Origin: Halomicrobium urmianum
GTDB lineage: Archaea > Halobacteriota > Halobacteria > Halobacteriales > Haloarculaceae
Direction of reading: 5' to 3'
DNA: 64,000 nucleotides
Assembly (NCBI RefSeq): GCF_020217425.1
Contig: NZ_CP084090.1
Span: 2,232,001 to 2,296,000, forward strand
The notes under the pieces: generated by a model
Told to the model about the DNA's origin: nothing
What the model saw: only the letters and a program-made list of their open reading frames with translations
Database searches by the model: none
Position numbers and translations under genes: made by a program
Shown here: positions 59,705 to 63,214 of the stretch, piece after piece
How the letters are laid out: the number at the start of each line of letters is the position of its first letter
Numbering within the stretch: position 1 is the first letter of the stretch

Positions 59705-60904
59705 TCAGTCGTTCGTCCGGATGACGTCGAGGCCGTTGTTCTTGTCGTCGGCGTCGCGGCCGCCGTCGGTGTGGCCGTACGCGCCCTGATCGTCGAACTC
59801 CTCGACGTTCTGGCTGGCGTCGAAGGTGGACTCGTCGTCGACTTCCTGGATGGCCTGGCGGGACTTGTCGGCCTGCTTCTGGGTCGAGGGGCCCAGTACC
59901 TGGGCGGACTGGACGCCGGTCATGATCGCCATGACGCGGACCTTGCCCTTGTACTCCTCCTGGATGCGCGCGCCCCAGATGACGTTGGCGCTGGCCTCCA
60001 GGCGCTCGGTGATGTTCTGGGCGATGCCCTCGGCCTCCTTCAGCGTGAGGTCGGGACCGCCGGTGATGTGGACCAGACCGCCGCTGGCGCCGCGGTAGTC
60101 GACGTCCAGCAGCGGGTGGTTCATGGCGTCCTTGACGACCTCCTCGGTCTTGTTCTTGTCCTGGGTCTCGCCGACGAGCATCACCGCGACCCCACCCTGA
60201 TTCATGATGGAGGTCATGTCGGCGTAGTCCAGGTTGATGAGGCTGGGCTGGGTGATGGTCTCCGAGATGCCCTTGACCGTCTCGGCGATGATCTGGTCCA
60301 TCACCGAGAAGGCCTTGCCGATCGGCAGGTTCGGCACGTAGTCGAGCAGGCGGTTGTTGTCCAGCACGATGATCGAGTCGGCCTCGTTGCGGAGTCGCTC
60401 GAGGCCCTCCTCGGCCTTCACCGTGCGGGCGCGCTCGACGTTGAACGGCGTCGAGACCATGCCGACCACGATGGCGCCCTGCTCCTTGGCGATCTTCGAG
60501 ACGACGGGCGCGGCGCCGGTACCGGTGCCGCCACCCATGCCGGCGGTGACGAACACCAGGTCGGCGTCGCCCAGGACGTCCTTGATCGTGCCCTGGGCCA
60601 TCTCGGTGGCGCGCTCGCCCATCGAGGGGTCGCCGCCAGCGCCGAGCCCGTTGGTCAGGGACTTGCCGACGAGGATCTTCGTGTCGGCCTCGATCATCTT
60701 GAGGTGCTGCTTGTCGGTGTTGATCGCGACCGTGTCGGCGCCCTCGACGCCGATGTTGTACAGGCGGTTGACGGTGTTGTTACCAGCGCCGCCGCAGCCG
60801 ACGATGACGATGCGGGGATCGCCGAACCCGTCGACGTCCTCGTCGTCGAGCGCCTGCTGCTCGGCCTCGTCGCGTTCGAGGGCCTCCTTGACGATGTCCT
60901 GCAT
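59705..60904 (-). CDS. ftsZ2: Cell-division tubulin homologue FtsZ2
   Basis: 399 residues from the ATG at 60904 (MQDIVKEAL), three bases after the cdrS stop; an upstream GTG would overlap cdrS. GTP-binding tubulin signature [14 protein letters not shown] is near residue 120, and the T7 catalytic loop region is [13 protein letters not shown]. The sequence [20 protein letters not shown] fits haloarchaeal FtsZ2, the paralogue needed for constriction. The acidic C-terminal tail ends [10 protein letters not shown]. It is the second gene of the cdrS-ftsZ2 operon. Confidence 0.94.
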
Positions 60905-61095: not shown

Positions 61096-61198
61096 GTTTC
61101 GTTCCCCGGTAAGACGGCCTGCGTTTACACGTGAGATCGGCCGGGTGTGCGGCCAAACCGCGGGACGGCGGCGATCTCATCGCCGCGCGCCGCGGGGT

Positions 61199-61249
61199 GT
61201 AAGACGACCGTCTTACGCACCAGTTACCACATGGGCATATCGTATAAAA
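61199..61249 (-). promoter_or_regulatory. cdrS-ftsZ2 promoter with GTAAGAC dyad
   Basis: TATAAAA at 61243-61249 (TTTTATA on the minus strand) predicts transcription starting near 61220. Immediately downstream lies GTAAGAC-GACC-GTCTTAC (61199-61216), a perfect 7+4+7 dyad over the initial transcribed region. Its position suits repression or autoregulation. Confidence 0.65.
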
Positions 61250-61318
61250 CTTCTGGCGAGCGTATGACGTACATGCGTTTACCGACGTAAACGCACTCTC
61301 GCGACTGTTTTCACCGTC

Positions 61319-61936
61319 TTACGGACTGTCGAGGACGTCCGCTGCGGGGGTGCGGCGGCCGCAACTGGGACAGAACGCCCAGTCCGACCGGAGCTCGTCG
61401 CCGCATTCGCAGAAGACACGCCGGGCGGCCTTCTCGCCGCAGTTCGGGCAGTACACGTGGTCTCCCGTCACGTTTTCGCCGCACTGGGGGCACGTCTTAC
61501 GTCCGCTCGGAGCGCCGTCGTCGCCGCTGTGCTCGTCCGTCTTACGATCATCCGCCGCGTGTGACGCGTCGCGGCGGGCCTCGCGCGCGCTCTCGTCGAC
61601 GCCGGCGTCCGACGTCGCGTTCGCCGCGTCGAGGGAGATGTTGACGTTCACGTCGCGGCCACCGCGGCCGTCGCGCCGGTCGAGGTGTTCGTTTACGCGG
61701 TCCCGGATGATCGCGTCGACGCGGTCGACGAGCAGATCGTCGATGCTGTCGTCCCCGCCGGCGTTCACGTTCCCGCTGGCGTCGGCGTCCGCACCGGCAT
61801 CTCTCGCCGGAGGGGTACCGTCGCTCTCGCCGAGGAACTCCCGGAGCGCCCGACGCATGACCTCGCTCTTGGAGTCGTCGAACTCCTCGAGCCGGTCGAC
61901 GAGGTCGTCGTCGGCGCGGAACGTGATCTTGCTCAT
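61319..61936 (-). CDS. cdrL: Ribbon-helix-helix plus zinc-ribbon regulator CdrL
   Basis: 205 residues. The RHH domain is SKITFRADDDLVDRLEEFDD then SKSEVMRRALREFLG. A low-complexity Asp/Gly linker follows, and a second helical segment is DDLLVDRVDAIIRDRVNEHL. The C-terminus has two zinc ribbons with four Cys pairs (CPQCG, CPNCG, CECGD, CPSCG). The position upstream of cdrS-ftsZ2 and the domain order match CdrL, which controls that operon. A 16-base palindrome sits just in front of its start codon. Confidence 0.88.
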   Translation of the reverse strand: MSKITFRADDDLVDRLEEFDDSKSEVMRRALREFLGESDGTPPARDAGADADASGNVNAGGDDSIDDLLVDRVDAIIRDRVNEHLDRRDGRGGRDVNVNISLDAANATSDAGVDESAREARRDASHAADDRKTDEHSGDDGAPSGRKTCPQCGENVTGDHVYCPNCGEKAARRVFCECGDELRSDWAFCPSCGRRTPAADVLDSP

Positions 61937-61953: not shown

Positions 61954-62051
61954 TTGCAGGCCGGGTATTTCAATCTTGCCGACCTGCGTCTGACGCCTGT
62001 CTGACCGGGGCTTCGGCCCGGTGGCCCGTAGCGCGACGGCGGCCGGGGGCC

Positions 62052-62986: not shown

Positions 62987-63060
62987 CCGCCCTTAGCTCA
63001 GACTGGTAGAGCAGTCGACTGTAGATCGACTTGTCCCCCGTTCAAATCGGGGAGGGCGGA
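62987..63060 (+). tRNA. tRNA-Tyr (GTA)
   Basis: Acceptor CCGCCCT (62987-62993) pairs with AGGGCGG (63053-63059), discriminator A at 63060. The D-arm GCTC/GAGC, anticodon stem GTCGA/TCGAC with loop CTGTAGA (anticodon GTA at 63021-63023), and T-arm CCCCG-TTCAAAT-CGGGG are all intact. No intron and no encoded CCA. Confidence 0.96.
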
Positions 63061-63193
63061 CTTTTCCTGCGAACGAAGTGAGCAGTGAAAAGTCTCCGTG
63101 ACACGATTTGAACACGCCAGTCGCAGCCCCGCGCAGCGACCGGAGGGAGCGAGCAGGAACGTCTGGCATCTGTTCAAATCGGGGAGGGCGGAC
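63040..63193 (+). repeat. Direct duplication of the tRNA-Tyr 3' end
   Basis: The 22-base sequence from the T-loop to one base past the discriminator (63040-63061) recurs exactly at 63172-63193. The 110-base interval also carries CGATTTGAAC (63104-63113), the inverse complement of GTTCAAATCG. This is the signature of tRNA-targeted integration or a recombination scar. Confidence 0.8.
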
Positions 63194-63214
63194 AGGGCGC
63201 CCCTCCGCCACGAG

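Follow-up and report, generated by a model that had tools for sequence, protein, structure and literature searches.

Six copies of the heptamer GTAAGAC, in one orientation or the other (GTCTTAC), are gathered around the genes cdrS and cdrL of the haloarchaeon Halomicrobium urmianum, and they raise the question of whether they form a regulatory site and which protein would read it. In our literature search no paper on GTAAGAC in archaeal promoters was found; CdrL is known to bind at one genomic place, and no target sequence for it was found in that search. The matter touches the open question of how the expression of archaeal division genes is timed. Here we surveyed the repeats in the window (the whole stretch of 64 kb that was analysed), in the genome of the species and at the corresponding loci of other archaea. 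With good confidence, we consider the heptamers to be a conserved operator array for the ribbon-helix-helix (RHH) Cdr regulators on the cdrS-ftsZ2 promoter, whose action and readers we infer.

The heptamer cluster and its surroundings

The genes stand on the minus strand in the order cdrL, promoter, cdrS, ftsZ2 (Table 1), and the start of ftsZ2 was placed at the ATG of MQDIV by comparison with relatives. All six copies lie exactly where the original prediction had put them, and the window holds no other. Two of them (61199-61205 and 61210-61216) form the perfect dyad GTAAGACG-AC-CGTCTTAC, which the cdrS strand reads as GTAAGACG-GT-CGTCTTAC. Further details of the prediction were reproduced as well: one heptamer lies just before the cdrS ATG, its end 13 bases away, another includes the stop codon TAA of cdrL, and both copies inside cdrL are in-frame codons for Arg-Lys-Thr (CGT AAG ACN). 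The predicted six did not include the degenerate box C, which precedes box D by 52 bp and the TATA-like element by some 20 bp, and the CdrS-type box before cdrL (Table 1) was likewise no part of the prediction. The heptamer over the cdrL stop recurs at one other locus only (L075).

Table 1. Features of the cdrL-cdrS-ftsZ2 locus in window coordinates.
Feature	Position	Strand	Basis
ftsZ2, same operon as cdrS	59705..60904	-	Pfam tubulin/FtsZ, FtsZ_C
cdrS, RHH regulator, 62 aa	60907..61095	-	NCBIfam CdrS equivalog above cutoff; Pfam RHH_1
Box G, GTCTTAC on cdrS strand	61109..61115	-	box at -20 to -29 in 89/91 loci
Core dyad, boxes D and E, two RHH-type half-sites 11 bp apart	61199..61216	-	sequence
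TATA-like element TTTTATAC, cdrS-ftsZ2 promoter	61242..61249	-	sequence; constant distance to dyad
Box C, degenerate; GTCATAC on cdrS strand (GTATGAC forward)	61262..61268	-	conserved position
Heptamer over cdrL stop	61316..61322	-	sequence; differs from class-wide box C position
cdrL: RHH domain, variable linker, double zinc ribbon	61319..61936	-	Pfam; alignment
Box B, in cdrL	61494..61500	-	Arg146-Lys147-Thr148, just before first zinc-ribbon Cys
Box A, in cdrL variable linker	61539..61545	-	Arg131-Lys132-Thr133
CdrS-type box GTCAGACAGGCGTCAGAC, upstream of cdrL TATA	61988..62005	-	perfect match in genome scan

A genome-wide motif count, run as a check, excluded a high frequency of the heptamer: the 4.25 Mb genome has 47 copies, about one per 100 kb outside the locus. 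With the 41 other genomic copies as background, 0.0042 copies are expected in the 437 bp of the cluster, in agreement with the earlier estimate of well below one, and the probability of six or more is 8e-18, or about 8e-14 when corrected for the number of windows. Avoidance of GTAAGAC elsewhere in the genome was not seen against an order-5 model. That chance or codon effects produced the repeats has a practically negligible probability. A dinucleotide shuffle of the whole 64 kb window does give 2.9 heptamers on average, but this figure understates the case for a cluster because the shuffle ignores clustering; the cluster probability of about 1e-13 speaks against chance, and the conservation across the class, given below, refutes it. 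A second close pair of heptamers in the genome (C1:741573 and 741650), near an isopentenyl-diphosphate isomerase-like gene, was set aside, there being no dyad at that place.

Some other features of the region are recorded here in their own right. A perfect dyad, CGTTTAC-CGAC-GTAAACG, stands at 61276-61293, after the cdrL stop and before box C, and may be a terminator or a further site; enrichment of GTAAACG was seen upstream of cdrS at 46 of 110 loci. The sequence AGGGGAA is conserved across cdrS loci between box G and the cdrS ATG (about 61096-61108 of the window); it resembles the BRE of ftsZ1 promoters and a weak second promoter is possible. The 3′ end of tRNA-Tyr (62987-63061) seems to be repeated about 130 bp downstream (about 63170-63195), as after integration of an element.

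Conservation and layout of the array in Halobacteria

Conservation of the heptamer upstream of cdrS-ftsZ2 in other haloarchaea was run as a check of the prediction and was borne out at 110 of 110 loci. When all 7-mers upstream of cdrS were counted at the 110 loci, GTAAGAC was the most enriched, with 442 copies against 1.58 expected, and the general form GTA-W-GAC occurred 492 times as against 14 for GTC-W-GAC. The palindrome, searched with a centre of 3-6 bases and with a reversed-pattern control that stayed near zero, is present in 280 of 292 Halobacteria genomes and in 74 of 77 genera, with a single copy in 279 genomes and two copies in one. Wherever coordinates were compared, in 80 genomes, the palindrome is located 104-149 bp upstream of cdrS, and outside Halobacteria it was met in 3 of about 310 genomes, which is the chance level. 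The second dyad of the one genome with two (G240, L224) is near a transposase-like ORF and was taken as chance or mobile.

One of the 12 genomes without the palindrome (G230) has no detected cdrS, and the other 11 retain clusters of boxes. Six of these belong to family f9 and have a 2-base dyad centre (L084, L086-L090); in the remaining five the boxes are kept, with one half-site changed or with different spacing. The zinc ribbon of CdrL looks divergent in L084, the sole f9 CdrL that was aligned. As a separate observation, some f8 genomes have cdrS inside a longer open frame, 381-599 aa in length (G157:C1:1789771, G236:C144:7457, G253:C160:14887, G209:C2:26097), which is perhaps a CdrS-FtsZ2 fusion.

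The boxes hold regular places. Relative to the cdrS ATG of 80 named loci from across the Halobacteria they stand at about -455 (A), -410 (B), -180 (C), -125/-114 (D/E), -60 (F) and -25 (G); two loci whose contig begins at cdrS (L022, L024) and one with an N-masked promoter (L041) were left out of this judgement. The start of D is 11 bp from that of E in 66 of 83 loci, and the TATA-like element starts 32-33 bp before D in 75 of 82. In archaeal promoters such a TATA spacing would place D and E on the transcription start. Since the spacing between TATA and palindrome is fixed, the dyad should overlap the predicted transcription start of cdrS-ftsZ2. At 87 of 103 loci box C reads GTA[A/T]GAC on one strand or the other, and its commonest distance upstream of D is exactly 52 bp; the swapping of its orientation between genera fits a symmetric reader. 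The array has the build of an RHH operator, namely symmetric GT-NNN-AC half-sites repeated at helical spacing, 11 bp from D to E, on a promoter with a fixed TATA. In the Natrialbaceae loci L045, L048, L054, L058, L059, L065, L066, L069 and L074 a GTCTGAC of the CdrS type, described below, was seen in the cdrS leader between boxes F and G.

Selection acts on the DNA itself rather than on protein or RNA, as seen at box A and in variant dyads. Box A falls in the hypervariable linker of CdrL, and all genes with this box read it in one and the same frame. According to genus, the first of its codons is CGT, AGT or GGT, giving Arg, Ser or Gly, and GTAAGAC is unchanged; the DNA is constant while the residue varies, which argues for selection at the DNA level. 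Where CdrL has Arg-Lys-Thr, 62 of 68 instances are encoded as the heptamer and 5 of the other 6 as its one-base variant CGTAAAAC, as compared with a CGT share of about 16% among other Arg codons. It appears that some amino acids of the regulator CdrL are set by regulatory DNA within its gene.

It is very improbable that the boxes act as RNA, in the form of leader hairpins controlling mRNA stability or translation. In favour of it, complementarity is shared among boxes D, E, F and G, all of them within the predicted leader, but A, B and C are outside the predicted transcript and the F-G spacing is loose (26-38). Moreover, at four of the seven loci without the exact dyad (L047, L081, L082, L085) the GT-NNN-AC half-sites are kept and perfect complementarity is lost, which speaks against a hairpin. 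In the comparison of box sequences, compensatory changes that keep the pairing were not found, the boxes being nearly invariant.

The conservation, the single palindrome per genome, the TATA phasing and the constraint on DNA in the coding region together give strong support to an operator, and this part of the original prediction stood. At the level of sequence the heptamers are confirmed as a real and deeply conserved putative operator array. In the proposed mechanism each box, a 7-bp near-palindrome GTA-W-GAC, is taken as the footprint of one RHH dimer. The core dyad, two boxes set one helical turn (11 bp) apart on the predicted transcription start, would be filled cooperatively by RHH dimers and initiation would be blocked. 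The outlying boxes (C just upstream of TATA, F in the leader of most species, G before the ATG, A and B in the 3′ part of cdrL) would raise local occupancy, and C may alternatively allow activation.

CdrS-type boxes and the candidate readers

A different box is found at other promoters of the division genes. Haloarchaeal ftsZ1 promoters have GTC[A/T]GAC just before BRE/TATA, and GTAAGAC is absent from them in 14 of 14 genomes. The ftsZ1 promoter is a published target of CdrS (PMC8406309). When Haloferax marisrubri was scanned with GTC-W-GAC-N4-GTC-W-GAC, hisB and ftsZ1 came out, each of them a published CdrS target, and the GTC-W-GAC pair was therefore taken as the CdrS-type box. The cdrS array, having GTA-W-GAC, does not share the box that the CdrS regulon has at ftsZ1. 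Among 28 cdrS-ftsZ loci of other Halobacteriota, which have no detectable cdrL, GTC[A/T]GAC occurs in the cdrS leader of 27, and 22 dyads with the 11-bp step are present at these loci against 0.02 expected; GTATGAC is a minor box type in such leaders. Arrays of this kind in cdrL-less relatives make it probable that CdrS autoregulation through such an array is the ancestral state; the array of the haloarchaea, of similar layout, was probably recoded from GTC-W-GAC to GTA-W-GAC.

Probably the boxes are the sites, so far missing, at which the division regulators CdrL and/or CdrS bind. For the two readers named in the original prediction the support is indirect: CdrL is favoured by its ChIP peak at this promoter but does not hold as the sole reader, and the case for CdrS is weakened by the ChIP list of Hfx. 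volcanii and by the difference from the ftsZ1 box. By ChIP-seq in Hbt. salinarum the cdrS promoter was the only reproducible site of CdrL (PMC7439475), for which one palindrome per genome offers an explanation. The 18 CdrS sites of the Hfx. volcanii ChIP-seq do not include the cdrS promoter (PMC8406309). In Hbt. salinarum the expression of ftsZ2 falls when cdrS is lost, and the published cdrL deletion strain had second-site mutations.

That CdrL alone reads the boxes, and CdrS never does, we rate as improbable. The unique ChIP-seq site matching one dyad per genome and the cdrS promoter missed by the CdrS ChIP would agree with it, as would the failure to find either CdrL or the GTAAGAC array beyond Halobacteria. 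The two mark the same clade, and their co-occurrence is hence not independent evidence. An operator of CdrL only would be present only alongside CdrL, and this is contradicted by the genomes. By profile search, 281 of the 292 Halobacteria genomes have a CdrL ortholog; the 11 others, from at least five lineages, contradict the published claim that all sequenced Halobacteria encode CdrL, and all 10 of them that have cdrS keep the exact dyad. With G136 and G261 excluded, the cdrL-less loci were inspected individually (L221, L222, L223, L181, L182, L242, L243, L244): they have an intact cdrS-ftsZ2 and no cdrL, the next gene upstream is usually tRNA-Tyr, and GTAAGAC has not reverted to GTC[A/T]GAC. 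Matches inspected there as a hidden substitute for CdrL were VapB-like antitoxins, another small RHH protein, RNA polymerase zinc ribbons and one zinc-ribbon protein, none of them CdrL. On whether the losses in g14 and g50 were a single event, the protein tree gave 90/92 and the DNA tree was unresolved; G138 and G281 are close (8% at 4-fold sites), so the retention of the dyad there is not telling by itself. As the dyad is kept in 10 genomes without detectable CdrL, CdrL is not the sole reader.

CdrS would be the simplest second reader, in view of the fall of ftsZ2 in the cdrS deletion and of the occurrence of GTATGAC, as a minor type, among the boxes of CdrS-type arrays. It is doubtful that CdrS reads the boxes alone, by negative or positive autoregulation, with CdrL recruited through it. 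The same two points would favour it, together with the CdrS-type arrays of equal spacing in methanogen cdrS leaders and the nearly universal presence of cdrS in Halobacteria, but the absence of the cdrS promoter from the Hfx. volcanii CdrS ChIP counts against it, and so does the use of GTAAGAC at cdrS where other CdrS-type promoters of Halobacteria have GTC[A/T]GAC. This ChIP gap and the persistence of GTAAGAC without CdrL leave room for a third conserved protein, and the unlikeness of the boxes to the CdrS-type box points the same way; we give such a reader a low probability, since it would have to be assumed in addition to two RHH regulators that are encoded at the locus, one of them bound there in vivo. 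The preferred reading remains an array of GTA-W-GAC shared between CdrS and CdrL in Halobacteria, with CdrL as reader where it is present and CdrS as the ancestral, CdrL-independent one.

A putative feedback loop and comparison with known systems

The genome of Halomicrobium urmianum has five perfect CdrS-type dyads, including those before cdrL in the window (Table 1) and at ftsZ1. Perfect boxes were also observed before a GTPase gene (G000:C1:1637010, L228) and a bactofilin-like gene (G000:C1:2991536, L234), which makes these two genes candidate CdrS targets. With at most one mismatch, the CdrS-type box is present in 32 of 78 cdrL promoters against none of 524 control windows, and a single box of the GTATGAC type, centred on no fixed partner and placed about -14 relative to the cdrL ATG, was counted at 23 of 75 loci and in 1 of 525 controls. 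This suggests that CdrS acts on cdrL and that CdrL acts back on cdrS-ftsZ2, with the signs of both actions read from position only. In the sample most Natrialbaceae, and also Haladaptatus and Haloferax, lack the box or have it in a strongly degraded form, so the loop would not be universal. In the predicted loop the targets of CdrS are cdrL and ftsZ1, and the target of CdrL, alone or together with CdrS, is cdrS-ftsZ2. Only tentatively do we extend it to the model that CdrS drives cdrL and ftsZ1 through GTC-W-GAC, that CdrL with or without CdrS closes cdrS-ftsZ2 through GTA-W-GAC, and that the array was recoded when CdrL entered Halobacteria.

The survey offers an exact, class-wide candidate sequence for the CdrL site, a palindrome occurring once per genome in nearly all sampled genomes. 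The CdrS-type box before cdrL gives a testable feedback loop, and cdrL was lost in several lineages where the array was not.

Among known systems, the nearest is the CdrL-bound cdrS-ftsZ2 region of Darnell et al. 2020 (PMC7439475), which is the same promoter and has a ChIP peak as unique in the genome as the dyad. The main text of that paper gives no motif; the sequence, the box layout and the species range are proposed here, and the array is also retained in genomes without CdrL. The CdrS box of Hfx. volcanii (Liao et al. 2021, PMC8406309) is likewise a symmetric motif with an RHH reader; its form GTC-W-GAC with an 11-bp step at ftsZ1 and hisB was derived here and not taken from the published logo. 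The cdrS promoter differs in having GTA-W-GAC and in lying outside the 18 published sites.

Among named proteins, NikR is one of the closest relatives of CdrS. The RHH operators of NikR, CopG, Arc and MetJ are short inverted half-sites contacted by the N-terminal beta strand. The cdrS array differs from these in spacing and box sequence and in being an array of six or seven boxes over about 430 bp, partly within a neighbouring gene. The aCcr1 protein of Sulfolobales, a weak NCBIfam match of both CdrS and CdrL, is also an RHH repressor of a division gene, but it belongs to another lineage and has other targets than the Cdr regulators.
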